Below are positions 8,651-60,179 of a DNA stretch of 64,000 nt, in pieces. The stretch is taken from assembly GCA_018389105.1 (NCBI GenBank), contig JACATO010000647.1:428001-492000 (forward strand). Reading direction: 5' to 3'. Position 1 is the stretch's first letter. The number at the start of each line of letters is the position of its first letter. Below the pieces are notes generated by a model. The model was not told where the DNA came from. It saw only the letters and a program-made list of their open reading frames with translations, and did no database searches. Origin of the DNA: Nautilus pompilius. Its lineage: Eukaryota > Mollusca > Cephalopoda > Nautilida > Nautilidae. Both the position numbers and the translations under genes were made by a program.

Positions 8651-9415
8651 TTAGTCTACATAACCATACAAAAGTCCCTCGAGTAAAGCGCGTTCAGCAT
8701 CCCTGGAACCCTTTCGGGGCCTCCTGCCGACCGGTTCCAAGTCTCTGTAGCACTTATCGAACACGCTGTCGACGACCTCCCTCGCCCGCTCAACGGGCAC
8801 GTTTCGGACCATGACCACCGACATCACCGCCTTGTTCCTGACGCACTCGGAGTGCTGCCGGCGGAGGTTCAGCGGGGACGCCTCGCCCGCCGCGATGGCC
8901 GCGAGAACGGAGCAGTGCATGAGGTTCGCCGCCCGGATCTCGGTGCAGGCCAAGTGGTGCAGGTTCTCGAAGTCCACCTTCGCCCGGCAGAAGTCGAACG
9001 CGTGCAGGAGCTCGTGGGCCAGGACGTTGCAGCAGACCGACCTCCTCTTGCTGTTGTTCTGACAGACGACGACCTGCTTGGAGACGGGGTCGAAGCCTCC
9101 GCTGACGTTCCCGACGCAGTTCTCGCAGGAGAGATGCCGGCGCAGGTCCACCTCGCAGCCGTGGCTCTTCAGGGCGCGCGCCATCAGCTTCACCATCGGG
9201 TGGTTCTCCGTGCACCACAGGACGCTGCTCTCGCACTTAATCCGCCTGCCGGCGTCGCGCCCTTCCAGCATCTTGCTCCAGAACGATTTGGCCTTGGAGT
9301 CGCTTCTTTCCGGATAGAAGAAATAGCCGAGGTCGTCTTCGGCCGTCGGCTGTAACTTTCCCCATTGTTGGTCGTGCGCCTCGCTCTCTTTGTCGGCCAT
9401 GTTGATGGGCACCAA
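8651..9415 (-). CDS. ATP23: ATP23-type mitochondrial inner-membrane metallopeptidase, intronless
   Basis: 254 codons without an intron, close to the length of human ATP23. The zinc-protease motif HELLHAFD lies at residues 134-141 (HExxH plus Asp), preceded by SCENCVGNVSGGFDP (residues 96-110) and followed by HLACTEIRAANL, all family hallmarks. ATP23 works in the mitochondrial intermembrane space, processing Atp6 and assisting F1Fo assembly in yeast; it contains conserved cysteines as here. Two in-frame starts are possible: 9415 or a better-placed ATGGCC at 9400. The coding region is very GC-rich, with G or C in most third positions, against AT-rich flanks. In vertebrates the gene has several introns, so this may be a retrocopy, a lineage-specific intron loss or transferred DNA; the frame is fully open, which argues for function. 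It is convergent with the E2 gene. Confidence 0.93.
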   Translation of the reverse strand: MVPINMADKESEAHDQQWGKLQPTAEDDLGYFFYPERSDSKAKSFWSKMLEGRDAGRRIKCESSVLWCTENHPMVKLMARALKSHGCEVDLRRHLSCENCVGNVSGGFDPVSKQVVVCQNNSKRRSVCCNVLAHELLHAFDFCRAKVDFENLHHLACTEIRAANLMHCSVLAAIAAGEASPLNLRRQHSECVRNKAVMSVVMVRNVPVERAREVVDSVFDKCYRDLEPVGRRPRKGSRDAERALLEGLLYGYVD

Positions 9416-27700: not shown

Positions 27701-28629
27701 CCTGGCTTCGTCCTGCCATTGTATACTTTTTAAGGAAGTCTGTAGTAATGTGGAAATCATGAAAGACTTTCAGATGCAGCACAAAAACTAAATGTTTTTG
27801 TTTATTTTCAGCTGTTCATTCTCATATCACTCAGATAGCTGTGGTTTCTCCCAAAGAATCTTATAGCTGCTATGTTCAACCCAAAGAACCTATTTCCCTT
27901 GGTGCATCATTGGTCACTGATATTACAATGGATGCTAGTGGCCAAATGTTTCACAAGGGGAAACCTGTGAAAAGTGTATCCATAACTCAGTGTCTGGTAG
28001 ACCTATGTTCATTTCTCAGAAAAAAGAAGAAAGTTTTACTTATTGGACACAACATTCATAGGTTTGACTGCCCAGTGTTAATGAATGCTGCTGCCGCCTG
28101 CAACATGATGGATAGTCTTGCTACTGTTATTTATGCTTTTATGGACACACTGAGGCTTTTCAAAGCTGTTCATCCAGGGCTGTTGAGCTACACTCAGGAA
28201 AATTTAATTAAATACTTTTTGGGCAATGAATTTTTATATGCCAAGCACACCGCATTGGGCGACTCTTCTGCATTACAGCAACTGATCCATCACTGTAAGT
28301 TTGACAACACCCAGAAAGAAGCACACAGCTTCCTCTTTTGTTACTTGTCTGAAATACACAGTTACACAAATGTGAAAAGGGTCAATAAGGAATCTTTAAA
28401 TGTTTTGGTGCACAATGGTATTTTAAGCGAAAGAATGGCAGATAAGATGGCTGGAAACGGTCTCTGTTTTGACCATCTGAAGTGGGCCTTTCATTATGAC
28501 CAGAGACAGGGTATCACTACTCTGTTCACATCTTGTCTACCTGATGGAAAGATCAGAGTCACAAAGAGCAATTGGATAATAGACAGAGTAGCTGATTATT
28601 TCCAACAGCTCGAGCAGTCTTCTGACTGA
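18783..28629 (+). CDS. DEDDh 3'-5' exonuclease-domain protein of the PML C-terminal type
   Basis: Best model joins 18783..19037, 23915..24212 and 27812..28629 (about 456 residues). Intron phases agree: ATG/gtaagc to ttccag/TTC is phase 0, TTAG/gtaaaa to ttcag/CT is phase 1. The exonuclease core is clear: Exo I FFDVETTGL (Asp about residue 178, Glu 180), Exo II GHNIHRFDCPVL (Asp about 270), Exo III HTALGDSSAL (His about 330, Asp about 335), so all four DEDDh acidic residues and the His are present. The closest relatives I know are the exonuclease-III-like domain at the end of PML isoform I and stand-alone invertebrate and fish homologues; no RING or B-box is visible. Residues 1-150 (basic, Ser/Gln-rich) are unrecognised. 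The start at 18783 is chosen because an acceptor (CTTTCCAG, ending 18768) sits just upstream; an acceptor at 18804 is an alternative. Substrate (RNA or DNA) is unknown. Confidence 0.82.
19038..23914. other. Intron of the exonuclease gene
   Basis: AT-rich, without a supported gene or a transposon with identifiable ends. Segments at about 23.0-23.1 and 23.4-23.5 kb share short words and may be an old local duplication. Confidence 0.5.
26217..27488 (-). mobile_element. Full-length dead mariner element inside the exonuclease gene's last intron
   Basis: TIRs are CAAGGGTTGCTCTGAAACTA at the left and its diverged inverse ending in GACCCTTG at the right (about 24 of 28 positions pair). The element is flanked by TA at 26215-26216 and 27489-27490, the target duplication of mariners. 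Its length, 1272 bases, is full size for the family. It is oriented opposite to the host gene. The transposase inside is broken (see separate entry). Confidence 0.9.
26312..27339 (-). pseudogene. Mariner transposase pseudogene
   Basis: About 342 codons, family length. It begins MASDMDVRTKQRCVVEFLQA, the helix-turn-helix region contains SGRPRTAATPGNEERLNQFI, and the C-terminal part has the hallmark HPPYSPELSPSDFYLYGPM with the third catalytic Asp. Damage: an in-frame stop where Y-G-D is expected (near 27230), stops and shifts at 26750-26930, including at the Trp after the first catalytic Asp (TGDKT then stop), and the block that should hold the second Asp (DNARPH in relatives) reads FLGHVAKFG. 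It cannot encode active transposase. Confidence 0.9.
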
Positions 28630-32807: not shown

Positions 32808-35772
32808 CAGGGGTCGGCACGATACGGCCCGCGGGGCACTCTCATCCGGCCCACGGAGCCTTTCCGGAAAAATGACAAAATATTCAGTCCTTGAGAAATC
32901 ATGGCTGTGTGTGCCTTTTATTTTTCAAGCGTTCTTGAGTGCTGCATGCGCTTGCAAGTGGGCGCTCAGACGTGTGATCACGTGTGCGATGCACGCACAA
33001 AATTGACAAGGCGCGCGCAGACTCAGGTGTTTTGTCCGAAAGCAGGTCAGGGCTACTATAAAATGGCGTGAGCGCACACGTTGATAACAGTCTGTCAGAG
33101 TTTTTGCGAGCGCGTTACGCATTAATTACTTGTCATCGGTAAGCTGTGTTAACTTGCAATTGTTAAGAAATCACTTAATTTATAGATGTAAAGTGGCAAT
33201 AGAAACGATTGCTCACAGTTAATTACGCATGTTTTCATGGAAGTCAGGCCCTCAAATAAAGACCCCTCTACTTAAGTTTAAAAAAACGGTTGATGCTATG
33301 CAGTATAAAATCCTTCCTGTGATTAAAAAAGCTTAAGCTTCGGTTTACGTGCAAAAGTTTAACATGAAACATTTCAAAATATCAGAAGTATAGGGTTTTT
33401 CTGAGGGGGTCGTTGTTTTCTCAACAGGATGCCAGTAAACCATAAAAATTGTGTTCATATTCTGTTTGTAGATCTATTATGGAAAGCAAACAGCGAAAAG
33501 TTGATCTCGAGCACCGTGTTTTTAATCCCACATGGACAATTGACTACTTCTTTGTTGAACACTTTGGCCAATGTCATTGCCTGCTTTGTGACAGAACCAT
33601 TGCTGTGAAAAAGTCCGAAAATGTCAAGCGTCATTATGAAACGTTACACCTCAAAGATTATCATTTTCTCAAGGGCGCTGCTCGTGAAAAGGAGGCGTTG
33701 CGGCTGAAAAAATTACTGCAGAAACAATCATCATTTTTTACTGTGACAATTGACGACTCTGACAAATATAAGCTCGCCAGCTTTGAACTTTCGCTGCTGA
33801 TTGCTAAACACATGAAGCCACTAAGTGAGGGAGAATTCATCAAAAAATGCCTCGTAAAAGCTGCTGATATCCTTTGTCCAGAGAAAAAACACCAATTTGC
33901 TCAAATTCCACTGTCATCGAGAACAGTTACCAGACGAGTCGAGAATCTTGCCGAAGATGTTGGAATTAAGATTGAAGATATGTACGAGAATTTTCAATCT
34001 TTTTCAATAGCCATTGATGATACAAGTGATGTCTCCGACACCTGCCAGCTCGCCGTATTTGTTCGAGGAGTTACCTCTGACTTCACCGTGTTTGAAGACT
34101 TTGCACGCATTATTCCACTCAAGGATACAGTGACCGGGGTTAACCTGTGCGATGGCGTTTTTACTTGGCTCAATGAATCTAAACTCGATCTCACCAAGCT
34201 TGTTGGAGTAACCACCGACGGAGCTCCCGCTATGGTTGGAGACACGAACGGTGCTGTCGCATTGCTTCAAGAGAAGATTGGTAATGCACAACGACTTTTC
34301 AAACTTCACTGTATCATCCATCAGGATGTTCTTTGCGGGAAATCTTTGCATTTTAAAGAAGTTATGAATGATGTCGTAAAGATCGTGAATTTCATTTTGC
34401 CGAGGTCCCTTAATCACCGACAATTCAAGGAGTTCCTTCGAAATACGCAAGCTGAATATGGCGACCTGTGTTACTTCACAAATGTTCGTTGGCTTAGTAG
34501 AGGGAAAATGCTTTCTCGATTTTATGCTCTTCGAAATGAAGTCGCACTGTTTTTGCAACACAAACACTCCGATCTTGCGAACGTTTTCGACGATCCACAG
34601 TGGATCGTAAAAGTGGCTTTTCTCGTCGACATCACAGCGCACTTAAACAATCTGAATCTCCATCTACAAGGCAGAAATAAGAATGTTTTTGAAATGTTTG
34701 AACGTATCACAGCATTTGAAACCAAGCTCTTACTTTTCGAATCCCAGCTTCGTAACGACAACTTCAGCCATTTTCCTAGTCTTAAAGAGTACTCAGAACA
34801 ATGCGATTCTAATCTCTTCGTCAACGCCATTCTGGATCTAAAAATTGAATTCAAGAATCGCTTTGAGGATTTCCGTTGATTGAAAGATTTGATTTTTCTG
34901 TTCGGTCGACCATTTGACGCACCTGTCGAAAATCTTCCTTCAGAATTTCAGCTCGAAGTGATCGATCTGCAGAATAATGCCTTGCTCAAGAGCAAATTTG
35001 AGTCCGAACAACTAGTGGAATTTTATGCGAACTATCTTCTGCCAAGTGGGAGCTTTCCTCACCTCGTCGACAACGCGAAGAAGTTTGCTTCGTTGTTTGC
35101 AAGTACGTATGCTTGTGAACAGGTATTTTCAAAGGTTAAATTCACAAAAAATAACCTTCGAAGTCAACTCACTGACGATCACCTCAAAGACATTCTTTTG
35201 CTGGCCGCCACTTGTGTTGATCCGGATACAAAAAAATTGACCGCCAATGCGCAAAAACAACCAAGCCACTAATTCCGTCTGTATTTTTGTAATAAAAACT
35301 TGCATTTTAATTGACTTTTGAAAATTTTTTTGGGTTATACTCATGGACTTTCCATTGGAGGCAGTGGTAAGAAGATTCGGTCAATTCGAATTGGGTTTCT
35401 TAATAAATGATATCTACCTTGAAAATCATTTAAATAGTGAAAATGTTTGACAGAATGTTTTATAATGTAAAAGAGCGATTATAATTTGTTTGGGAAATTC
35501 AAATGTGAAAAGTTATTGATAAAAAAGAAACAGAAGCTGTAAAATTCGATATGCTGGCCACTTCCATAACTAGAGATCTTCGAATTGACAAAAAAGATTT
35601 ACCAATTACTTCGTTTTTTATTTATATAAAAGCCAAAACGCAGCAATATTTTCTGGGTGAAGCAATGGTGAAATTTTTGCAATTAATTTTTGGCAACTCA
35701 TAACCATCCGGCCCGCGGACATGCGGCTAATTTTGAATCCGGCCCGCGAGCCGAAAAGGTTGCCGACCCCTG
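32808..35772 (+). mobile_element. hAT element (GTF2IRD2/Charlie8-like), nearly intact
   Basis: TIRs: CAGGGGTCGGCA at the left and its inverse TGCCGACCCCTG at the right, with GGCCCGCGG-type words repeated just inside both ends. The left 8-base flank is CTATAGGG and the right is CCCTAGAA, which do not match; the left neighbour is copia and the right neighbour a LINE. The transposase ORF (33449..35272) has one stop only. Confidence 0.9.
33449..35272 (+). pseudogene. hAT transposase with a single in-frame stop (GTF2IRD2/EPM2AIP1-like)
   Basis: About 607 codons in one frame, interrupted only by TGA at 34877-34879. The likely start is the ATG at 33479 (residue 11). A BED zinc finger has C44-x2-C47 and H62-x4-H67. 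The RNase H-like core shows IAIDDTSD (about 190), TTDGAP (Asp about 257), C-x2-H in LHCIIHQ (about 288-291) and the RW block NVRWLSRGKMLSRF. After the stop, the C-terminal hAT dimerisation region with the catalytic Glu reads STYACEQVFSKVKFTKNNLR. The same transposase type gave rise to the hAT-derived part of GTF2IRD2 in mammals. One nucleotide substitution seems to be the only clear lesion, so this is a young copy. Confidence 0.9.
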
Positions 35773-40643: not shown

Positions 40644-43015
40644 CACTGGTCAACAAGTATTTTTCATCTAGCATATGTCAAGGTGCACTTAGTGTAGTTT
40701 TTAATGCTGATTTCAAATATACAAGTAGTTTTTTGACATCACGTACAGTTTTCAAGATGAGAAAGTTTTTTGGTTTTAGCTCATGCATTGTATAGAAATT
40801 CCAATTAACGACGTGTATGCATGTATTTCATTTACATCATGGAAACATACCTTTAAAATAAACTACATTATTCATTGCTGCATAGTTCAGATGCAATATT
40901 CCGTCATCTTAAATTAACCAATCAGGTTTTGTCTGATGAAATAGGTATTTCAACGTCTCAAATTGTCCAGTCATAATTAGTCTGATGAAATATTTCATCA
41001 TCTCAAATTCAATATAAGTATAACCGTTTGTATCTATTTCCTTACTTGTTTTACAGTGTTAACAATGTCAAGACAGTGTAGAAATCCTCCTGATGTGTTT
41101 TGTTATGTCTGTGGACAATTTATTGTGAAAGCTCAAAAACGTACAATAACACCAGAGATCAAGAAGATTTATAAGCTATACTTTGACTGTCCTCTTGGAG
41201 ATCAGGACAAGTTATGGGCACCACATTTTATCTGCTCAGCTTGCTCAAATGGCTTACGTGACTGGTTCAATAAGAGGAAGAAGTCCATGCCTTTTGCCAT
41301 TCCAATGATATGGAGGGAGCCGAAAGACCATTTTAATGACTGTTATTTTTGCAAAGTAAATGTTACAGGATTTTCTATGAAGAATAAACACAAAATTGTG
41401 TATCCCAATTTGGATTCTGCAATGAGACCTGTGCCTCACAATGGAAGTCTGCCAATTCCAGTTACACCAGATGATGGTATTGAAACATCAGATGATGCTG
41501 ACTGTCACGATAGTGCTGCTGAGGAAGATTACGTGGCTGATGACGATAGCTTTGAACCTCAGAAATTTTCCCAAGCTAAACTGAACAACCTTGTCAGAGA
41601 CCTATCCCTCTCAAAAGATAAAGCAGAACTGTTGGCATCAAGACGAAGGAGAAGTATCTGCTAGAGCACGGTGTTCATATAACTTATTTTCGGCAGAGAA
41701 ATGTGGTTCAACAAACGTGTTTTTCTGTTGAAGGCCCGCTTTGCTTTTGCAGTAACATCGATGGACTTTTCGAATGTTTATCACAAAATCATGATCCTGC
41801 AGAGTGGTGTTTGTTTATTGACTCTTCAAAACGAAATTTAAAAGCTGTACTTCTCCAAAATGGTAATTTGAACCCCCCCATTCCTATTGCACACTCTGTT
41901 CATCTTCATGAATCATATGAGAATATGGAAATTTTACTTCATGCCATTGCCTATGAAAGATACTCATGGAAAATGTGTGGAGATTTAAAAGTCATTGGAA
42001 TGTTAATGGGAATTCAGTCAGGTTTCACAAAATACTGTTGTTTCTTGTGTCTACGGGATAGTCGGGCAACTGACAGACATTATTCGGAATCAAACTGGCA
42101 GACAAGAACATCATACCAGCCAGGGCTGTCTAGCATCAAGAATACACCTCTTGTAGATCCATGTAATATCCTATTGCCTCCTTTGCACATAAAGCTTGGA
42201 CTGATGAAACACTAGGGAAGAGAAATGCCAGAGGGTTTGAGTATATTGTAGAAAAGTTTCCCAAAATCACACAGGCGAAGTTGAAAGAGGGCATCTTTGT
42301 TGGACCACAAATTAGAGAAGTACTCAAAGATGTCAACTTCAAGACAATACTGGATGAACTGGAACTGCCTGCCTGGAATGCTTTCAATTGGATCTGTGAG
42401 AATTTCTTGGGCAACAAGAAGGCAATGGAATACGAGTATGGCATCAAGAATCTTCTGAAATGTTACTCAGCAATGGGTTGTCGCATGTCACTGAAAGTTC
42501 ACTTCTTGGACTCCCATCTGGATTTCTTCACAGATAACCTTGGAGCAGTGTCTGATGAACATGGTGAAAGATTTCACCAGGACATTAGTGCTATGGAGAA
42601 ACGGTACCAAGGCTTCTGGAATGACAGTATGCTGGCTGACTACTGCTGGACACTTTACCGTGATCAACCAGATCAGGAACACCGCAGGAAATCCAAATCA
42701 CAATGTTTCTAACTCTGCTGTTCTAACTTTGTCTGTTTTGTCTGACCCATTTTTTGTGTATTCACTCTTTGTAGAATGATAGTGATGATTTTTAACTCAA
42801 TAAACTCATTTACTTTCTAAAAATAATATGTCCTTATTTATTACGTTAATGATTTCATATATACAAATATGTAAATATTTGCATGTATCTACTGAAAAAC
42901 TGATATGTGCTGCATACAAATGGAGTGAAATTTTGAAATCAGCATGAAAAATTAGTCTAAAAAAGTTGGTTTGCATTCATAATGAGTATAATACATTTAA
43001 TTTTGTTGACCAGTG
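40644..43015 (+). mobile_element. Inner CACTG-TIR element with TAA target duplication
   Basis: The first 13 bases, CACTGGTCAACAA, are exactly inverted at the right end. Direct TAA repeats flank it at 40641-40643 and 43016-43018. Length is 2372 bases. It lies in the 3' non-coding part of the outer element, so a member of the family hit another member. Confidence 0.85.
41056..42712 (+). pseudogene. Transposase-like gene of the CACTG/TAA family (inner copy), lightly damaged
   Basis: Three C-x2-C pairs (C16/C19, C60/C63, C96/C99) make a likely zinc-binding N-terminus: FCYVCGQF, FICSACSNG, DCYFCKV. Then come an acidic linker, FSQAKLNNLVRDLSLSKDKA, CLFIDSSKRNLKAVLLQNGN (first conserved Asp), CGDLKVIGMLMGIQSGFTKY (second), a YCCFLC-x-DSRA motif, LPPLHIKLGLMK, EGIFVGPQ, KVHFLDSHLDFF and VSDEHGERFHQDI (conserved D/E cluster), MEKRYQGFW and MLADYCWTLYRD. 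There is a one-base shift at about 41643 and a short deletion at about 42212 that removes the segment matching FVKALDK of the outer copy. Role inferred from position inside TIRs. Confidence 0.75.
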
Positions 43016-43428
43016 TAATAAATCATATAATTTTTTTGTATCATTTTATGATCAAATTGTATAAAAAGTCTTTTCATTTTCTTTTCCATTTCATTTCATT
43101 TCTTTTAAACTTAAATTTAAATTTAAAAAAGAAACTACATATTGAATCCAAAAGGGAATGCCGAATTCAAATTTGGCACCCAAAAATTAATAAAATACAC
43201 ATTTAACATTCTATGTAAAAGAAAATTCATCAAATTTTGTTGGACAGTGTAATTAGACTCCCTCGGAACCAAGGTGTTTTGAATCTCATAAACCTAGAGA
43301 GCAAAATAGGTGCTCAACAAATATTAAATATAAGAGATATCATAAGAACCGTAGACAATAGACCAAAATGGAAAAATCTTTTCCTCAACCGTTTAGCAAA
43401 AGCATATGACACCCTTGACGGTGTGCAT

Positions 43429-45785
43429 TAGGGTGTTGATTGTTTGTGGCTTTTTCAGAAATTCATGAAGGCCAGTGTATGAAAGGATGAGTCTTTAGGT
43501 AAAAGTCATGGAAATAACTTTCATTTTTATTATTTTTACGAAAAACTCCCCCACCACTGCAACTTTTATATTTGCATCTGTTTACATTTTCAGATATCAC
43601 TTATTCATTTGTGCAATTATCTCGACAAGTTTACATACTTTATGATGTCTTATAAACGCAGCAAAAAAGAAATTGACAAAAGTGGAGTGATATGGAGCAA
43701 GAATTTAATCCATTACAAAAAGAGCTGCTCTTCCAGAAAAGGCTTAAAAATTATTAGTAAAGCCTTGCATGAATATGTGCGAATGCCAACACAAGCCATG
43801 ATTATTGGCAGATACAAATATCTTGCTGAGCAAAAGAAGGAGAGAAGGAAGCGAGTTGATATTATTTCAGAAGAACTGGTGACTCTTTGGTCAAAATTGA
43901 ACTTTCCATGTATCACAAAGAAATCAGTAAGGAGGAAAATTGAGAATCTGCTTGTAAAGCATGACAAGCACTTAAAAAAACCAAAAGCCAATGATAAAGA
44001 ATTTTTTGCTGGAGTTTTTGACCTCACCAAAGCAGATGGTATATGGCTGAGTGCTGAGGACAAGAAATTACATCAACTACAAGTAAAGTCTAAGGGGGCT
44101 ATTGGTTATGTCACTGAGAAGACTGGGTCCATCCATCCAAGCAAGATGGCTTTGCTAAAATCTCAGGCAAATGAAGTGGGAGCCTTAACATTAGCAGCAA
44201 CATCATCATCAGTATTGAGTTCTTCCTCCAGTGGCCAGGAAAGTGATGCTACTGACACCACTGCTGAGGATCAACCACCAAGAGAAGAAGAATGGGAATT
44301 GTCACCACAAAAGAATAAGCGAAGATATGAATCTGCCAGAACTGCTGCAAGCTTATCACGAAAACAAAATATTTCTCTGAGAAAATCTGCTAATTTGTGT
44401 CGACAGCTGTCAGATGAGGGCTACAAGATGCCAACTCCATCATATGCTGCTGTTTATAGAGAGAGAAAAAGACAAATGTTGCAGACCCAGAAAAAGTACA
44501 AAGAGACCCTGAAGAATGAAGATTGGGTGTTGCACTTTGATGGAAAGAAGATAGGCGAAAAAGAACTCCAAGTTGTTTTGCTCAAGAATGCTGAAAAAGA
44601 AATCCGGTTGAAGGTAATGCAATTGCATGATGGCAAAGCAATAAGCATCTACAATGGTCTTGTTGAAGTTCTTGATGAGTTTCAACTTTGGCCAAGAATT
44701 CTGATGATAATAACGGACACTACGGCTGTGAACACTGGAAGACTTGGTGGTGTGGTAAAGCGGTTAGGACAGGAATTCACAAGAAGAGGGCTTCCTTTAC
44801 CACAATATGTTGGTTGTCAGCACCACATACTGGACACAATTCTCAAGCACCTCATGAATGACAAGCTTCCTGGGAGAACTACTTCATCTGAAATATCTTA
44901 TGAATTTGCTGATCATCTAATTCGGAACTACAATGAGCTCCGCCAAAATTTTCTTCAGAGTGAAGAACTGTTGAAAGTGAAGGACCTCAAGTGGAGCGAT
45001 GATATGCAATATCTCTATGAACTGTGCTGTTACTACAAGTACTATTGTAAGAACAGAGCTTTTCCCTTCATAAAATTTAAAAAACTACCTGCGATGAGCA
45101 ATGCTAGATGGAATTCACGGGGCATTCTTGCTCTTTTGTCTTTCATTCTTTTGCCTGAGTATAGAGAGCAGCTCAAAGCAATCTGTGATTTCCTGTCTGG
45201 CGTGTGGATGGATATATGGTTTTCAGCTCATCAATTCTGTGAGGAAGATGCTGCCAAGGTTACGGATGCAGTAAAAGCATTAAACTGCCAAAAAGCTTTA
45301 AACAGTTTGAATAATTTCTGGAGCCGTCAGGCCTCAGTGATTCCAGGTGTTCAACGATCAAATATCTGTGCTGAACGAGCTATAAGTTACTTAAAAGAGA
45401 TCACGTCTACTTGCAAGTCCATTGACAGTCTCAATTTACGATTTCTTGATTCTAATTCTAATTGATGTGTACTTTTTGCGTACTCTCTAATTGCATTTGT
45501 ATTCCTGTAGTTGTTATTTCATGATTACCAGTGGAATAAAACAATTTCTTACCATATTTTATTTTATTATAAAAGACTTATTCATACAATAGTTGTAGAC
45601 AACATACGTCTTTTCATTATAAATATATTATCTGAATTGTTTTTGATATGCTGACTTTCATTTACTTTTGGTGGGGGACATTTTTCCAAAAAATATATTA
45701 ATGAGACTTGTTTTTATTCATTTTACCCCAAAACTCATCCTGTAGGACCATGGCCATAACATGTCATGACAGAATCAACACCCTA
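43429..45785 (+). mobile_element. Complete hAT-like element, unusual transposase lineage (copy 1)
   Basis: TIRs: TAGGGTGTTGATT at the left, exactly inverted at the right end (AATCAACACCCTA). A perfect 8-base direct repeat GTGTGCAT flanks it at 43421-43428 and 45786-45793. Removing the element and one repeat restores the LINE frame (LDGVH then VLTDKLKLYRAQ). Length 2357 bases. The internal ORF is uninterrupted. Confidence 0.95.
43609..45465 (+). CDS. Intact transposase of the hAT-like lineage, copy 1
   Basis: 618 codons; the likely start is Met13 (43645, MSYKRSKKEID), because a splice acceptor TTTACATTTTCAG ends at 43593 just upstream. Residues 80-125 are basic; 135-160 contain FDLTKADGIWLSAEDKKL, shared with copy 3. 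A Ser-rich acidic linker covers 198-232. The nuclease core can be traced: HFDGK with Asp311, IITDTTAVNTG with Asp370, GCQHHILD with C403/H405/H406, NARWNSRG with R500-W501, and NICAERAI with Glu589. The order D, D, Cys-His, RW, E is that of hAT transposases, with a helical insertion between the second Asp and the Glu, but there is no BED finger and no typical C-terminal dimerisation block. Family assignment rests on this order plus the 8-base TSD. Confidence 0.85.
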   Translation: MCNYLDKFTYFMMSYKRSKKEIDKSGVIWSKNLIHYKKSCSSRKGLKIISKALHEYVRMPTQAMIIGRYKYLAEQKKERRKRVDIISEELVTLWSKLNFPCITKKSVRRKIENLLVKHDKHLKKPKANDKEFFAGVFDLTKADGIWLSAEDKKLHQLQVKSKGAIGYVTEKTGSIHPSKMALLKSQANEVGALTLAATSSSVLSSSSSGQESDATDTTAEDQPPREEEWELSPQKNKRRYESARTAASLSRKQNISLRKSANLCRQLSDEGYKMPTPSYAAVYRERKRQMLQTQKKYKETLKNEDWVLHFDGKKIGEKELQVVLLKNAEKEIRLKVMQLHDGKAISIYNGLVEVLDEFQLWPRILMIITDTTAVNTGRLGGVVKRLGQEFTRRGLPLPQYVGCQHHILDTILKHLMNDKLPGRTTSSEISYEFADHLIRNYNELRQNFLQSEELLKVKDLKWSDDMQYLYELCCYYKYYCKNRAFPFIKFKKLPAMSNARWNSRGILALLSFILLPEYREQLKAICDFLSGVWMDIWFSAHQFCEEDAAKVTDAVKALNCQKALNSLNNFWSRQASVIPGVQRSNICAERAISYLKEITSTCKSIDSLNLRFLDSNSN

Positions 45786-46849
45786 GTGTGCATGTTCTTA
45801 CTGATAAACTAAAACTATATAGAGCACAAAAAAACTTACTAACCGACTACCATATAACCTCTTTACAAAACTGATTAGTTGCAACATTAACATAGAAACA
45901 AACAACCAAATAAACTTAGGTTCTAACAAAATTGATCTAGACAAATTATCCCAACGAGACATCTACCTCTTCCTGTCGTCACGACCTATCAAGGAACCAG
46001 ACTATAAGAAGTGGTGGGAAGATACACTAAATTCAAGAGCACTTCCATGGGATAGGATCTGGAAAAGTTCCACTAATCACCTCATGGATGGATACTCCTC
46101 TAGACATTCACTGGAAAATTCTTAGAAACATACTCCCTACAAGGGAAAACAAACATAAATGGAAATTTATTAATTCTCCAAAATGTCTTAGATATAATGA
46201 CAAGGACGAAACGGTATTACACTGTATATTCACATGTCCGCTGAATATAGAACTGTGGTGCCTAGTCCGCGACCTGGTTTTCAAAATTAAAAGCCCCCAG
46301 GACAAACTTAGTTTGTTCTGGCGCATCTTTGGATTCATCCCTCGAACTAAAAAGGACTGGTTTTCGAACTTCTTGGTATTCACTGCGCAGCGGATAGTTT
46401 GGGGTAGCCGAAAGGCTTTAGAGAGCAGCCAACTCACGTCAACCAAAAGATTATTCCAAAACCACTTAACGCTTTGCTTATGACAAAAATATGCAGCCAA
46501 GAAATCCAGTGCTAATGAGATAGCAATTTATTCAGCCACCTGGCTAATAAACAACGCCCTCGGCACCATAAACCCAAACCACATCCTCAAACCCGGCTAC
46601 CCACAACAAACCTACACTCTAGACCAGCCCCCCCCCCGAGTCACATCCAACCTTTTTTCCCCTTTGTTTTGTGTATATTCCTTCCCCTTAACTAACTTTT
46701 CCTTTCAGCATATAGCAACTCCACCAGAATGCCAGATAAACAAGATCCAGGAGGCAAGTCCTTCACAGAAGGAATCACCAAACAATAAAAGGCCACGCCT
46801 TCCCAATTAGCAGTTCCTGTCTTTAAGGGTACCACAAAAGCGTAGAGCT

Positions 46850-48780: not shown

Positions 48781-50975
48781 CACTGCACGGATCTCGGAAT
48801 GAGTTGTTTTCACGAGGAGATTTTACCTTCTCCTCTGCAGGTAAGTGTTGGTGCATGGGTGAAAAAGTGCATCAGTAGAGCAATAGCTTGCCTATTGTAA
48901 GGGCTGTGGAATCACACCCTCGTTTTGGGCCTCTCGAGTAAGTCAGGATACTTCTTGGAGGAAACAGAACCTACCAATCCGGGATTTTAGCCCAGTTGGT
49001 CACAGGAAAAACTTCTCGGTCAGCGAAAGTTTGGGAGTACGTCTGCTTGGCTCGGCACGACAAACGCAGTAACCGACTGAGCTCTCCGACGGAAAGAAGT
49101 TGAATTGTAGGTGTTTTTTCGTGTCAGTATGTTGCAAGCTGCAACAAGCCTTGGCCTGGAAGGAGGCATGCCAGTCGTGGCATGCCCATCCGGGGAGACG
49201 GGTCTTCGACCCATAGGGGGAGTTGGGCTCCAGGCCGAGGTTATGGGACGAAGGACTCCCACCCAGGCTAGATGCGAACCTGAGGTATCGTGTCGAGAGC
49301 AGGAAGCTGGAATGTATGCAAGTGTCCTGAGAAAGGAGCGTCTTTGAAAGGCCTGCTGCTTGAGCAACACTGAAGGCAAGGGTGAAGAGCTGGGTTTTAG
49401 TAGCTTCTTGCGAAGCTATAAAAGGTTGGTAACCTCCTCGGACAGCGAGACGAGTGACAGGCACCAGAAGCCGGACCAGGCAGAGATGTCCAAGCTGGGA
49501 AACCAGGAAAAAAGGAGGAAAAGGAGCAGTTGTTGTTCCCCCATTCCAATGGATCACGGAGAGTGAATCCGGTTGACGTGGGGCATGCCCTCATGAAGGC
49601 CGGGCTTACCTCCTGTGTTACGGCGGTGATCCTGAAGCCCAGTGGGACAATAGAGATTGTTTGCCGTTCGAACGACGACGCCAATTTTATACTGAGGAGG
49701 CCCCTTGAAGTAGCAGGTGTGGGATACGAGCTCCGGGGAGCTTGCCCCATAGCCTGAGTAAAGGTACGCGGAGTACCTTTACATGCCCCGGAGGAGGTAC
49801 CGTCAGAGCTCCTGAGGGAATATGGAAGGGTTTTAGTCGGCTGGAAGCACGACACCCTTGTAAGTACACCATTCCTGTCAGGGCAATGGAGTTGGAAAAT
49901 GTTGATCACAAAACCAATTCCCAGATGAGTCTCTGGTAGCATCAATGGGCACACGTACAAGGTCAGGGGTCACACCCTGGACTCTTGCACAGAAATCGCG
50001 GAGACGGTAGCCAGGTCCAGGAGCTGATCGTCAATCCAGGTGCAGCTGCAACCCAGCCAAGAGTGCAGTATCGGCGTAAGAAGTCGCGGACAGTGGCAGC
50101 GGAGCACACGGTCACCATCCAAAAGGGACCACGGAGCAGGTCGGCTTCTCCAAGCCCACGCCACAAAAATGGTGGCATGATGAAACCTGAGCCCTCCTGT
50201 GAGGTGGTCGCGACACCGGACATGGTACCGCGAGAGGCTCACATAACCACGGTCAAGGAGCCGCTATGCAGCAATGAAACTGACCCACTGCCAGAAACTC
50301 CGAACACCTGATTTTGGGGGCTTCCTTTTTGGAGATAGACCCTAGATAATGTCCACGGACATACGATTTTTATTGATCTTCGATTATGGATAGACACTTA
50401 AATTTTCTCTCCTTCAATGTTAGAGGAATAAATTACAATACACATTTCAAAGGTTTCTTAAACTACCTAGAAAAGTCAAAAACAGATGTAGCCTGCTTGC
50501 AGGAACTACACCTCAACAACCAGATAGAATTAGAAAATAAATTCGCCTGATGGAAAGGAAAGAAGCTCAGTAGTTTAGCGCCATCCGGCAGAGTACAAGG
50601 AGTAGCTAGCATAACAAAGGAGAACCAAACAAAGGCGATGATTGCGTCGGTATACGCTCCCAACGTGGCACGGCAGAGGGTTGCCTTCATGCAGAGCCTC
50701 AAAGATATGTTAGAACAGGAACTTATGGCTTACCCTGCAAGTGAGATTTGTGTGTTGAGGGACTTTAATTACGTCCAAAACCATGAGTTAGATAGGCAGG
50801 GACCGGCCGTTAACCATAGGACACATCTTGCTGGGATCCCGCATCTGGAGACCTTGTGTCAACAGTTTGGATTAGTGGATGCGTTTAGAAATAAACACCC
50901 AGACATAAAAGAGTACACTCATTATAGCCATAGATATAGCATTAGGGTGATGACTACAGAACTTATTTTTAAATA
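48781..50975 (+). mobile_element. Tx1-like LINE, 5' half: 5' UTR, ORF1 remnant and AP endonuclease of ORF2
   Basis: GC-rich 5' region to about 49,350, then ORF1 traces in two frames: basic KLGNQEKRRKRSSCC (about 49.5 kb), DVGHALMKAGLTSCVTAVIL and NFILRRPLEVAGVGYELRGA (49.6-49.75 kb), and YKVRGHTLD (about 49.95 kb). ORF2 starts near 50383 with the endonuclease: NFLSFNVRGIN, CLQELHLNNQ with the catalytic Glu, IASVYAPN and VLRDFNYV (the usual GGDFN, first Gly positions altered). One TGA at about 50548 and a shift near 50945 interrupt it. The rest of ORF2 is missing; a Tigger begins at 50976. Confidence 0.8.
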
Positions 50976-51076: not shown

Positions 51077-53618
51077 TAGGGTGGTCCAGAACGGGGTGTA
51101 AAATTTCATAGTGCACTGATCCTTTCTCCACACCACTGATTGTTTTCGTGTTGCATTTTTCTCCTTGTGTGCAAAATTTCATCACAATACAATGATATTT
51201 AGAGGTCGCCCCACTTTTAATCTTTTCATTTTTCTTCTTATTTTCAGGATATGGCAACCAGTAATCGTTCGAGCCCCGAGTGTTGGCTTCTCGGGGAGCC
51301 TGTTGATTCCCTGTCATGTGCCCGACTTCCAAGAAAGCGGGATGTGCTGTCATTGTACCTGTTCCATCACGTCGTGGAAAAGAAGACCGTCATGGAAGGC
51401 CTGAACTTGGCATGTGGCAAGGTCCTCACCGTATGGGAGAGGGCCAGGATACCGACACAGCGGGTGGATGCTTGCGTCAGGAAACTTCGAGGAACCCACG
51501 ACAAATACCAAGCGCTCAAGAAACACCGGACTTGTGGGCGAGAGTCGGACCGTGTCAAGGAGAAGATGTTCCTGGATGACCTTCAGGATCTCTTTGATGT
51601 TGCCACAAGCGATGCCCTCCAGACCATGACCAACGAAGAAGACAGGGAGTTCCTCAAGATGCAGCGTGAGGACGTCTTCTCGTGCAGCATTGCAGGGATC
51701 GACGCAAAGAAATCTGGAGTCGAGGCCAGGCGTGGGAAGAGAAATGAGCAAGAAGCTGCTCTCAAGCGGAGATACGACGAACGAGAGGTCAAAGTTCAAG
51801 GGGCCGCTGCTGCCTTCAGTTCCAGCTCCACATCGTCGGAGGAGTCACAGGCTGATGACGACTACCGACCTTCAACTTCTGCCTGTACATCTGGTTCTCC
51901 TGCAAAGAGGCCCAAGAACATCTTCACATCTCCTGAAGTCGTCGGCGCCTTAGATAGAGTCAATCTCCCAGATCGTGGTGCTGCGTTCGTCACTGGCGCT
52001 GTTGCACAAGCCCTGGGCCACGATATTTCTGATCTGACGTTGTCCCGAAGTTCTATACGGCGGTCGCGTAGTCACACACGCCAAATCCAAGATGAAGAAG
52101 CACGGAAGAAGTTTCACGCAGCTGGTCCCCTTCTCCTGCATTGGGACGGGAAAATGCTGCAGGAGATGGGAGGGAAGACAGTGGAGAGGGTTGCGATTCT
52201 GGTAACCGGTCAAGGATTCGAGAAGTTGCTGGGTATTCCAAGCGCTGCACGAAGTACTGGAGAAGCTCAGGCTGCAGCGTGTCTGGAATTGCTTGAGTCT
52301 TGGAAGATTCGCGATGAAGTAGTCGGATTGGTCTTCGATACAACTGCAAGCAACACTGGCCTCCACAAGGGCGCATGCGCCCGGATCGAAGAAGGTCTTG
52401 GAAGGGAGTTGGCGATGTTGGCATGCCGCCATCATGTGTTGGAGATTGTTCTCTCTGACGTCTTTCGAGTCGTCTTTGGGGACACTGGAGGTCCGGAAGT
52501 CGCCCTTTTCAAGCGTTTCCAGAAGGAGTGGCCGACCATCAACCAGCAAGGGTACACAGTGGCTGAGGATACCCTCTTCGAAGGACATCTGGAGCAGCTC
52601 CGCTCCCAGATGAAGGATTACCTGGCATCTGCCCTGGCTGATCCAACGAAGTGTCCGCGCGAGGACTACTTCGAGTTCTTGCAGCTCGCAGCCCTGTTCC
52701 TCGGAGGGGGCACAACGACTCAACCATCGTTTCGTGCCCCTGGTGCCATCCACCATGCGAGGTGGATGTCAAAGGGCATCTACTGCCTCAAAATGTTCCT
52801 GTTCCGACACCAGTTCAAGACAACGAAACGAGAGGAGTGGAATGTGACTGTCATGGCTCTGTTCATTGCCCTGGTGTATGTCCGCTTTTGGCACGAAGCT
52901 CCTCTGTCATCCCACGCCCCACACAACGACATCATGATGCTGACTGAACTCCAGAAGTACACAAACAAGATAAACGTCGCTGCAACCGCGAGCAATGCCC
53001 TCCAACGGCATCTCTGGTACTTGGCGGAAGACTTGGTCGGCTTTTCCCTGTTGGACGACCGGGTTCCAGACAAGATGAAGGCTGACTGCGTGACCCGGAT
53101 GAAGACGGAAAATCCGATTGAAGATCACCCACGCCGGGCAAAAATCAAAGACACACTGGACATCCGCCTTGATGCCTTCTTCACCAAAAGGTCGTATCGT
53201 GTTTTTGACGTCCTGAAGAAAGGCGGAGCCCAGGAAGCGAAGCAGGGCTTCCTGCAGATGGATCCTTTGACTTGGAAGGGCGACAAGCTGTATGAGGACT
53301 TTCAGGCCAGAGCCAAAAGCCTGAGAGTGGTGAACGACGCAGCTGAACGTGGAGTGGCCCTGGCAGAGGCGTACAATGCGACGCTGACGAAGGATGAGGA
53401 TCAGAAGCAATTCATCTTCCGTCTCGTTCACGAACACCGAATGGCCATTCCGACACCCTCAAAGACCAACCTGATGACGAAAAAGTAAAAAATGGGGCGA
53501 CCCCTAAATGATGAGATAGAGAGACGAAATTTTGCATGTAATTCCTTTTCATGAAGTGTAATAAAATTAGCCCTGTGGAGAGAAAGAATTATCATTTTCA
53601 GTTTTTTGGACCACCCTA
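51077..53618 (+). mobile_element. Complete hAT-like element, unusual transposase lineage (copy 2)
   Basis: TIRs: TAGGGTGGTCCA at the left, exactly inverted at the right (TGGACCACCCTA). A perfect 8-base direct repeat CCCCCCTC flanks it at 51069-51076 and 53619-53626. Length 2542 bases. Its coding region is much more GC-rich than copy 1 and than the window in general. Confidence 0.95.
51251..53488 (+). CDS. Intact transposase of the hAT-like lineage, copy 2
   Basis: 745 codons with no stop. An acceptor-like TTCTTATTTTCAG ends at 51248, three bases before the start codon. The N-terminal third is charged (residues 60-180), with LFDVATSDALQTMTNEEDRE at 114-132 aligning to the FDLTKADGIWL-AEDK block of copy 1; a Ser-rich linker covers 190-215. 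Core motifs: LLHWDGKML with Asp299, LVFDTTASNTG with Asp363, ACRHHVLEIV with C392/H394/H395, HHARWMSKGIY with R504-W505, and NDAAERGVAL with Glu699. The D-to-E insertion is longer (336 residues against 219 in copy 1). It also has LFKRFQKEWPTIN, a block I associate with uncharacterised invertebrate proteins of this type. Intact frame, exact TIRs and exact TSD argue for recent activity. Confidence 0.88.
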   Translation: MATSNRSSPECWLLGEPVDSLSCARLPRKRDVLSLYLFHHVVEKKTVMEGLNLACGKVLTVWERARIPTQRVDACVRKLRGTHDKYQALKKHRTCGRESDRVKEKMFLDDLQDLFDVATSDALQTMTNEEDREFLKMQREDVFSCSIAGIDAKKSGVEARRGKRNEQEAALKRRYDEREVKVQGAAAAFSSSSTSSEESQADDDYRPSTSACTSGSPAKRPKNIFTSPEVVGALDRVNLPDRGAAFVTGAVAQALGHDISDLTLSRSSIRRSRSHTRQIQDEEARKKFHAAGPLLLHWDGKMLQEMGGKTVERVAILVTGQGFEKLLGIPSAARSTGEAQAAACLELLESWKIRDEVVGLVFDTTASNTGLHKGACARIEEGLGRELAMLACRHHVLEIVLSDVFRVVFGDTGGPEVALFKRFQKEWPTINQQGYTVAEDTLFEGHLEQLRSQMKDYLASALADPTKCPREDYFEFLQLAALFLGGGTTTQPSFRAPGAIHHARWMSKGIYCLKMFLFRHQFKTTKREEWNVTVMALFIALVYVRFWHEAPLSSHAPHNDIMMLTELQKYTNKINVAATASNALQRHLWYLAEDLVGFSLLDDRVPDKMKADCVTRMKTENPIEDHPRRAKIKDTLDIRLDAFFTKRSYRVFDVLKKGGAQEAKQGFLQMDPLTWKGDKLYEDFQARAKSLRVVNDAAERGVALAEAYNATLTKDEDQKQFIFRLVHEHRMAIPTPSKTNLMTKK

Positions 53619-55792: not shown

Positions 55793-56025
55793 TATCAAAA
55801 TTCCTGCTATGACATGGGGTGAACTTTTGCATAAAAAACATTAATATAAAGCTCGTTTTTGATTTGTGTGAAAAAAGTTGCCCCGGGCTGCCAAATAAAA
55901 ATTTCCATTTTACATTCTAATAGGGCAAATTTTGTAAATATTGATGTATTGGCATTCTCATACAAATTTATTCGTAACTGATACATTGTTTGAGTCTCTT
56001 CTGTTCTTTGCCCTCTACCTAACTC
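55793..56025. other. Unassigned AT-rich sequence between Tigger A and hAT-like copy 3
   Basis: No coding region seen. It does not read as continuation of the LINE endonuclease, so the right flank of Tigger A may be different DNA from the LINE on the left. Confidence 0.4.
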
Positions 56026-56856
56026 TAGGGTTGCAAGATGCTAAGAAATAGCGATTTTGGTAAATCATGTGATTTCTGGGTGAAAGAAAAATCAGCGTAC
56101 GGAAATTAGAAAACAGTGTTGAATTGGCTGTCATGAGAGGTGGATGTGCGATGTGTGTTTAAGTGTCGAAAATTTGGTTTATATATTGAATTAACTTGAA
56201 AAAATGCATAATATTTAAATTTCTCCTATTTTTCCTTTTCATTTTCAGATTAACTACTATAATAAAGTTTAGTCTAATGGCTGATTTTAAGTCAAGTGAT
56301 ACAAGAGACATAAAAGAAATTTGCCAAGAATTGAAAATTTCAAAGATTACGTTAGGTTACCTTTAAAAAAAGATGTTTTAGGATGTTACCATACACTACT
56401 TGATAATGAAAAATCAAAACAAAAAAGAGTTAAAATTATTCATGAATAATTAATTAATCTATGGAAGATGACGAGTTTTCCCATACTCAGTGAGCAGGCA
56501 ATCATTGCTCGTATTAATAAACTAATATTAGAATATCAAAAAAATCAAAGATATCCAAAAGAATTTAAAAAAAAAACTAGATACTGTATTTGACATTACA
56601 AAGCCAGAAGGACAATGGTTGTGTGAAGAAGACAAGAAACTTTATGAAAAACAGATAGAATCTGAAGGAAAAATAGGCTACGCAACTCATAAACCAGCTC
56701 CAATTTCCTCAATTCATCGATCAAAAAGACAGAGATGCACTCAAAAAGACAATAAAACTGTGCCACAAGATAATATAAAAGATGACAAATCAAGTAGTTC
56801 AACCATCAATTCCGATACCAGTTCTAATGAAAGCATCTATGAATCTTCCCCTAAAG
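56026..56856 (+). mobile_element. hAT-like lineage, copy 3: left end and N-terminal fragment
   Basis: A candidate left TIR TAGGGTTGCAAG begins at 56026, sharing TAGGGT with copies 1 and 2. A splice-acceptor-like CCTTTTCATTTTCAG ends at 56249. The coding fragment follows at 56277. The element is cut at 56857 by a hAT-Charlie terminus and its 3' part was not found on the other side. Confidence 0.6.
56277..56856 (+). pseudogene. N-terminal transposase fragment of the hAT-like lineage, copy 3
   Basis: It begins MADFKSSDTRDIKEICQELK, then, after shifts and a stop at about 56365 and 56445, follows copy 1: RVKIIHE and INLWK match the copy 1 block RVDIISEELVTLW, and LDTVFDITKPEGQWLCEEDK matches FAGVFDLTKADGIWLSAEDK, followed by KLYEKQIESEGKIGYATHK against KLHQLQVKSKGAIGYVTEK. 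The Ser-rich linker (SSSSTINSDTSSNESIYESS) is conserved. The nuclease core is missing. Confidence 0.8.
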
Positions 56857-57780
56857 CTGTGGTTCTCAAGCTGGGGACCATGAAGCAATTTCAGGGGGAC
56901 CACGAAGGGGTCGCTGACTTGTGTTGTGACTGGATTCTATTTACAGTGTAAATTTGCAAGTATGCCGCCATTATTGACTGTTTTGGTCTACCTTGCTGTG
57001 GTGATAATCAATAAGTCGTTCTCAGTACATGCGTGTCCAGCGTGGGATCGATCGATAACACTCACACGCACGCTTACATGTACACATCACAACTCTGTTG
57101 GTTGCACTGTTAGCCGGTTGTACTCACCTACTCCATGTTCTACTTTGCTCAATTATCTTCCACTTTTGTTTTGGTAATAGACTTCTATTGTCTATTAATT
57201 GGACAGAATCATTACATTTGCGTTTTGCCTCTGGAAAGTTTTGTCAAAAGGTGAGCATTTATTTTTTAACGTTTTTTATCATTAAGTAGCTCATTTATGT
57301 AAAAGTAAGTACAACTTAATGCAGTAATGATGTTTTAATATAGTACCGCATTGTTCAGAATGACGTTGTAACAAATATCAGATAATAAACACTGAAATAG
57401 ATAAACAATAGTTTTACTTATGCATCCTTCTAAATGGGCCAAATTCTATCTGTTTTGTAGTGCTAACTCAATTTCTCTGAGTATCATCATTATCAATATT
57501 ATCTTCATTATTTAAGCACCCAAAAATGTTAACTGCAAAATGAGACAGCGCTGCTAGTGAAAAATAACTGCGGTCCTGTTAAAAGATCGGTCTGGTGCAC
57601 ACAATTTTTAAATCATGCAAAATACTTATCCATTATGTGTGTTTTAATTTTTTTGTAGAATGCCTCCTACAAAGAAAATGAGATATGATGAGTCATATTT
57701 GAAATCTGGTTTTACTGTGCTACATGCTGGTGGAGAAGAGAAACCACAGAGCGTTTTGTGTTCCGAGGTGTTGGCATCTA

Positions 57781-58895: not shown

Positions 58896-60179
58896 TACTT
58901 CACTAAAGCCTAGCAAGTTGAAGAGACATTTGGAATCAAAACATCCTAGTTCAGTAAACAAAGATGAAGAATTCTTCAGACGTCAAGCTGACAGATTGAT
59001 CAAATCCAGGCTTGATGACACAGGAATGTGTCTACAGGACATTTTGGCTGGTGTGAAAGCCTCTACGAGGTTTCAAGGAAAATTTCTGCCGCCAAAAAAC
59101 CTCACAACATCGGAGAGCAGTTGATACTTCCATGCTGCAGAGATATCATATCGCTTGTGCTTGGAAGTTCTGAACTTCAGAAGCTGAAGTATGTCTCCCT
59201 ATCAAACAGTACTGTCAGCAGGCAAATAACTGAGTCTGAAAATATTTTGTCCCATGTCATCTCGAAAATTCAGAATTCATTCTTCAATTTTTTTGCCAAC
59301 CAGCTCGATGAAATGACGGATGTGGCAAATTTAGCCCAACTGTGCGTCTATGTTCGCTACGTTCATGACAAACACATGGAAGATGAATTCCTGTTTTGTG
59401 AAACTCTGAGCACAAAAACAACTTCAAAGAAAATATTTTTCAAAGTTGACCGATTTTTCAAAGCGCATGGTATTAAGTGGGAGCATGTTATTGGAGTGTG
59501 CACCGACGGTGCTCGGCGATGCTTGGTTGCCGTTCTGGTTTTCAGACTTTGGTAAAGGAAAAGTCCCCGGAGGCTATTGGTACACACTGCTCTCGTCGTC
59601 AAGCACTGATGGTGAAAACCATGCCTGATGAGTTTAAAAATGTTCTGAATGACGTGATCAAAGCGGTGAATTTCATAAAAGCGAACGCTCTTAACTCGCA
59701 CCTGTTTGCTGGGTTATGCAAAGAAAATGATTCGGAATTTGAAACTGTTTTGTTGCACTCAAACGTAAGATGGCTTTCAAGGGGGAAAGTTCTGAAGAGA
59801 ATTTTAGTACTACGAAAAGAAATACACGATTTTCTATAAGACGCTAGACCAGGCATGCACAAAAATTTCTCTGATAGCCATTTTCCGACGTGCCTGTCAT
59901 ATTCAAATCCGTGAATAGCGTCAATGTTGCACTGCAAGGTAAAGAGATCACCGAGCTCCATTGTCATGAAAAATTGACTGCTTTCAAAATGAAGCTCGTA
60001 TTATGGCATTCGAAGTTGGAAAGCAAGAACTTTGCACCATTTCCACAGCTAAATATATTTCTTGATGAAAACGCACTTCACATCAATGATGATATCCTTG
60101 AGGTGATGAAAAACCACATTTCAATTCTTGGTGAAGAAATTTCTCGATACTTTCCCGATCTGCAGTAATTTGATAAGTA

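Follow-up and report, generated by a model that had tools for sequence, protein, structure and literature searches.

A probably young hAT-like transposon with hATm-type ends and a TGNNCA insertion target in the genome of Nautilus pompilius

Background

What kind of transposable element occupies positions 43429-45785 of a 64-kb stretch of Nautilus pompilius DNA, and is it still able to move? An earlier reading of this stretch (the window), made from sequence only, had described the locus as a complete hAT-like element with an intact but atypical transposase. Transposases of hAT elements carry the residues D, D, CxxH, RW and E in this order. The elements themselves are described as 2.5-5 kb long, with short terminal inverted repeats (TIRs) of 10-25 bp (PMC3942097).

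Besides Ac, Buster and Tip, a fourth hAT family, hATm, has been proposed by Zhang et al. in 2018 (PMC6004678). The proposal was based on a clade with 100% bootstrap, target site duplications (TSDs) of 8 or 9 bp and conserved TAGGGTG...CACCCTA ends. More than 74 Repbase hATm entries are mentioned there; hATm-6 is reported to carry PF05699 in its C-terminus, and two hATm-6 elements to possess TIRs of 417 and 575 bp. Among the papers listed by our literature searches, only this one treats hATm as a transposon in any detail.

Results

Structure of the element and its insertion site

The element is complete and measures 2357 bp, slightly below the size range quoted above; its exact 13-bp TIR (TAGGGTGTTGATT; 43429-43441 on the forward and 45773-45785 on the reverse strand) falls within the hAT range. 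It is flanked by an exact 8-bp TSD, GTGTGCAT, at 43421-43428 and 45786-45793, its only two occurrences in the window. YAGGG...CCCTR pairs lying 80-5000 bp apart and bordered by an exact 8-bp TSD occur twice in the window, at 43429-45785 and at 51077-53618, and not at all in each of 50 mononucleotide shuffles. The 13-base TIRs and the 8-base duplication of the earlier reading are thereby confirmed, and a chance pairing of TIRs and TSDs is ruled out by this control together with the copies elsewhere that have exact TSDs.

A feature absent from that reading is a subterminal inverted repeat of 87 nt, 70% complementary, with arms at 43470-43556 (forward) and 45669-45755 (reverse), which starts 41 bp inside the left end and 30 bp inside the right one. 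Beyond the TIRs the two ends align with a score of 36.5; none of 300 shuffles scored above 17. No RNA family reached its gathering score within the element. When the element is removed in silico together with one copy of the TSD, an open frame of about 96 residues spans the junction, with about 26 of them on the downstream side. This agrees with the claim that removal restores a host LINE frame, with the qualification that frame agreement across the junction alone has a chance of about 1/3 and that the LINE identity was assigned by eye.

The transposase frame (43609-45465, forward strand) comprises 618 uninterrupted codons from a TTG, just as first described, inside a stop-to-stop frame of 660 codons. 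Its first ATGs, at 43642 and 43645, lie 16-17 codons past a splice-acceptor-like TTTTCAG at 43587-43593 (forward), visible directly in the sequence, and the same heptamer precedes the ATG of the element at 51077-53618. As these ATGs come after TTTTCAG, the protein is likely to have 606-607 amino acids and to be encoded behind a putative intron of the 5' UTR. A polyadenylation-like AATAAA, likewise seen directly, is located at 45535-45540 (forward).

Copies in the host genome

The host assembly (727.6 Mb, 2558 contigs) contains at least 40 copies, these being the best 40 of 44 candidates from a DNA search. Its 42 rows fall at 40 places, since two of them are second pieces, and the 39 places outside the window were analysed with 200-bp flanks. 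Substitutions relative to the majority base do not exceed 0.30% in 30 of the 40 copies and 1.24% in all of them; because the 40 are the best-scoring candidates, this low divergence is partly selected and the count favours young copies. A protein search points to further places that are more broken, for example on C1458, C1139 and C2546. The window copy and two others (L009, L010) are identical over all 2357 bases. The 660-codon frame is open in 13 of the 40 copies, seven of which encode identical proteins and six a protein with one differing residue each. Changes that break the frame are mostly indels of 1-2 bp, some of which may be assembly errors, since 82 of 228 short indels adjoin a homopolymer of 4 or more.

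An exact 8-bp TSD is present at 34 of the 40 copies including that in the window (33 of the 39 outside it). Two further copies match at 7 of 8 positions, and in the remaining four (L020, L032, L037 and L046) an end has been lost or a base is shifted. Three pairs of copies have common flanks; with each pair counted once, distinct insertion sites number 37. Judged from these sequences, the element has probably been active recently, by a cut-and-paste mechanism.

Length variants are found as well. Of L045 and L047, one carries a 240-bp insertion and the other an 80-bp deletion; both retain an exact TSD, and the frame of L047 is open despite the change of length.

Long and short forms

The second intact element of the window (51077-53618, forward strand; 12-bp TIR TAGGGTGGTCCA, TSD CCCCCCTC) presents a long form of the transposase, with 745 amino acids encoded at 51251-53488 (forward) and a BLASTP match to the 618-residue protein at E 1e-8. 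This 745-residue protein has no Pfam match. The element occupies five places in the genome; three copies are full-length at 100%, and two of the five places show the same internal deletion (query bases 169-698).

Further relatives were sought by a degenerate DTT-x-x-NTG codon pattern, which has 163 matches in the genome versus 2 for the reversed pattern. Sorting the listed matches by eye gave about ten codon signatures, including those of the two window elements, and one locus was analysed for each of the eight remaining signatures (L055-L062). Five of these loci (L055-L059) match at least one of the proteins P0001 (the 618-residue short form), P0002 and P0003 by tblastn at E of 1e-3 or lower. 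L060-L062 gave no tblastn match to the three proteins at E 1e-3 and may be chance pattern matches. One of the loci, L056, is complete, with TAGGGTGGTCCA ends, a frame of 792 amino acids and a TSD ATATATAT. Four further diverged loci were added to the comparison from a protein search of the genome, which returned 94 rows (71 of 432 candidates scored). The collections viral_contigs and phages yielded no confirmed relative; in genome_contigs, 201 stretches fit a pattern and none encodes a relative.

The diverged relatives align with P0001 over most of its length and have an equally short spacing between RW and E, and identity between the short form and two long-form proteins is 21-27%. The left ends of related elements read TAGGGTG. 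Three of the diverged loci (L058, L063 and L065) combine such a left end with a TAGGGTA right end, and TAGGGTG...CACCCTA termini are present in both window elements and L056.

The window also holds an older short-form element of the L063 type, at 50943-50973 and 55794-56857 (bases 1-31 at 100%, 33-1189 at 87.6%). By eye, it comes after a LINE endonuclease-like frame, and it is split by a pogo/Tigger-like element that is itself host to the young second element at 51077-53618.

Motifs of the transposase

D311, D370, C403-x-H405-H406, R500-W501 and E589 (P0001 numbering) all stand where the earlier reading had placed them. D311, D370, C403, H405, R500 and W501 are conserved in all seven aligned short-form rows (P0001 and six relatives), while H406 and E589 are each found in six, H406 being lost in L058 and E589 in L065. 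These rows do not amount to seven independent witnesses, as they represent about three families and five of them, L055 and L063-L066, look like one. In a three-sequence alignment the long form has the counterparts HWDGK, DTTASNTG, CRHH, ARW and AER. The glutamate is aligned there; pairwise alignments of P0001 with P0002 placed the C-terminus otherwise and left it unaligned. A truncated transposase was considered and ruled out by the equally short RW-to-E spacing of L055, L058 and L063-L066. On this sequence comparison, the spacing characterises the short form as a whole and does not reflect a deletion in this copy.

Target-site preference

The element is found almost exclusively at a palindromic TGNNCA target, in which G3 and C6 are preferred beyond T2 and A7. 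The pattern nTGnnCAn is found at 30 of 32 distinct sites with exact TSDs, compared with 0.5% of the 8-mers of the window, and the looser nTnnnnAn at 31 of 32, compared with 9.3%. The exceptions to nTGnnCAn are CTTGCCAT (L011) and CCCCGCAG (L029). Counted over all 34 exact TSDs, that of the window included, T2 is present in 33, G3 in 31, and C6 and A7 in 34 each. A Buster-type nnnTAnnn target fits only 7 of the 32 sites and was rejected.

Six other short-form loci were examined, and three of them have paired ends: L065 with the exact TSD GTGTGCAT and L063 with GTGTACAT/ATGTACAT (7 of 8 matching) are of TGNNCA type, and L058 has GCGTACAT/ACATACAT (6 of 8). No paired ends were found at L055, L064 and L066. 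The TGNNCA rule may be confined to the short form, since the TSDs of the second element and of L056 depart from nTGnnCAn.

Evidence on hAT identity

Pfam searches with P0001, P0002 and P0003 at E values up to 10 gave nothing beyond chance rows; neither hATC (PF05699) nor BED nor any other transposase model was matched. This accords with the claim that a BED finger and a C-terminal dimerisation block are missing, though HMMER filters drop most weak matches and a diverged form of PF05699 could be missed. P-type transposase, MULE and THAP domains were likewise absent from the Pfam scan of the transposase. In phmmer searches no PDB chain matched the protein, and a profile search of PDB gave two chance rows.

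A link to hAT proteins is offered by another frame of the window, 33449-34879, the hAT identity of which rests on motifs seen by eye and on matches to DUF4371 (E 2e-6) and zf-C2H2_12 (E 1e-5), both below Pfam cut-offs. A profile of P0001, P0002 and P0003 aligned with it in hhalign at E 0.0025 and a score of 33.2 over 67 columns, in register, with the second D on the second D and CxxH on CxxH. The next-best score among 20 window frames was 21.1, and 100 shuffles reached at most 27.2; frame 59028-59555, hAT-like by eye, without a Pfam match and ending before CxxH, scored 19.0. When built from short-form sequences only, the profile scored 18.4 on frame 33449-34879, with a maximum of 25.4 among 60 shuffles; among ten window frames, where P0002 is a true relative, it scored higher on a mariner frame (20.5) and on the 41056 frame (20.0).

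Structure prediction was a check put forward in the earlier reading. A model of the catalytic region based on the two window proteins has the order b1(D)-b2-b3-a1-b4(D)-a2-b5(C..H)-helices-a(E): the first D ends strand 1, the second lies just past strand 4, C just past strand 5 and E in a later helix. The helical stretch ahead of E lies where hAT transposases have an all-helical insertion in the RNase H fold. The same strand and helix order is given for RNase H folds in PMC8230255. The predicted order of elements is thus that of RNase H, but the model itself is weak (pLDDT 49.3, pTM 0.41; 41.2 and 0.24 for a single-sequence model).

The hAT-like identity claimed at the outset is supported by the 8-bp TSDs, the T2/A7 bias, the recurrence of the motifs in relatives and the mixed-profile match, though the short-form profile alone gives no match. 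From sequence evidence, the element likely functions as a hAT element does, while the evidence for formal homology to hAT transposases is modest.

Other features of the window

An uninterrupted frame of 254 amino acids at 8651-9415 (reverse strand) matches Peptidase_M76 (ATP23-like; Pfam E 3e-50) and sits in the 2-kb block with the highest GC content in the left half of the window; it may be a single-exon gene or a retrocopy. At 27841-28629 (forward), a 262-residue frame matches PML_C (E 2e-19), with weak exonuclease matches below cut-off. Two frames at 41056-42215, of 202 and 170 amino acids, have no Pfam match; presumably they resemble portions of a single repeat-encoded protein known from arthropods.

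Discussion

The reading we prefer, and hold with considerable confidence, is that 43429-45785 is a young, autonomous DNA transposon of the cut-and-paste type, with ends of hATm type and a hAT-like way of working. Its ends, duplications, target consensus, copy number, open frames and recurrent residues are directly established. In the proposed mechanism, a transposase of about 607 amino acids with an RNase H-type active site (D311-D370-E589) would bind the 13-bp TIRs as well as the long subterminal inverted repeats and excise the element. The element would then be joined to target cuts with an 8-bp stagger at nTGnnCAn palindromes, and repair of the staggered cuts would produce the 8-bp duplication.

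The suggestion that the lineage may be undescribed is doubtful, as TAGGGTG...CACCCTA ends with TSDs of 8-9 bp have been published as hATm (PMC6004678), and both window elements have duplications in this range. The element perhaps looked undescribed because hATm was missing from the list of clades used in the sequence-only reading. It is conceivable, as a tentative proposal, that the short form is a separate unnamed branch of hAT, still active, with no recognisable BED or hATC domain, with a different N-terminal domain that acts on long bipartite ends, and inserting almost exclusively at nTGnnCAn, a stricter target than that of Hermes. Rather improbably, the element could belong to an undescribed hAT lineage apart from hATm, with TAGGGTG ends common by descent or convergence. 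The 21-27% identity of the short form to the two long-form proteins speaks for such a separation, as does the missing hATC match, given that PF05699 is reported in hATm-6 (PMC6004678). Against it, long and short forms agree in their ends, in having 8-bp TSDs and in the order of motifs, their sequences are significantly similar, and the one paper found on TAGGGTG as a transposon end names such elements hATm.

P-superfamily and Mutator-like transposons can both show a [C/D]xxH motif and duplications of about 8 bp. The signature string of the P superfamily also contains [C/D](2)H and D-D-E (PMC8230255). Membership in either group is nevertheless very unlikely, with no P or MULE match in Pfam and a T2/A7 bias that is hAT-like (PMC8721813). 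The TAGGG ends are hAT-like as well; such ends belong to hATm in PMC6004678. Pfam and PDB sequences without a match to the proteins would suit yet another reading, in which long and short forms together are a superfamily of their own beside hAT, with 8-bp TSDs by convergence. The link to hAT depends on a single profile match of 67 columns, which a profile of the short form by itself does not give. That match is, however, in register with two motifs and above all controls run. The T2/A7 bias reported for Hermes (PMC8721813) also weakens the case for a separate superfamily, which we regard as improbable, if less so than a P or Mutator origin.

With 13 of 40 frames open and three copies identical over 2357 bases, the transposase could be assayed as it stands. 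If the TGNNCA rule holds, the target of this hAT-like enzyme would be unusually predictable, and the enzyme would help to explain how hATm-ended elements work without recognisable BED or hATC. Genome annotation would gain a profile for proteins without a Pfam match. More hATm-ended elements are what specialists would expect; what stands out is the combination of many intact near-identical copies, a strict TGNNCA target and no recognisable BED or hATC.

Comparison with known systems

The protein resembles P-element and THAP9 transposases in the RNase H order predicted by the weak model, with [C/D]xxH placed behind strand 5 (PMC8230255). Pfam and PDB scans, in contrast, found neither a THAP domain nor any similarity to them. 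The ends of P-element and THAP9 also differ from those of TAGGGTG type. In the Hermes transposase the order D-D-CxxH-E is found as it is here. The Hermes TSD is reported to favour T2 and A7 (PMC8721813), and this likeness of the 8-bp TSD extends to the Ac group of hAT; G3 and C6 are, in contrast, nearly fixed as well in the element studied here. The BED domains of Hermes bind its left end (PMC10368747), whereas no BED finger was found here, nor any sequence match to a solved structure in PDB searches.

From hATm-6 the element differs in that PF05699, reported there, is undetected by Pfam scan, and in its 13-bp exact TIR with a separate 87-nt subterminal repeat in place of TIRs of 417 and 575 bp. 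Because this domain was not detected, we chose the label hAT-like with hATm ends. What joins the element to hATm are its TAGGGTG...CACCCTA ends, its 8-bp TSD and its intact structure with a transposase (PMC6004678).
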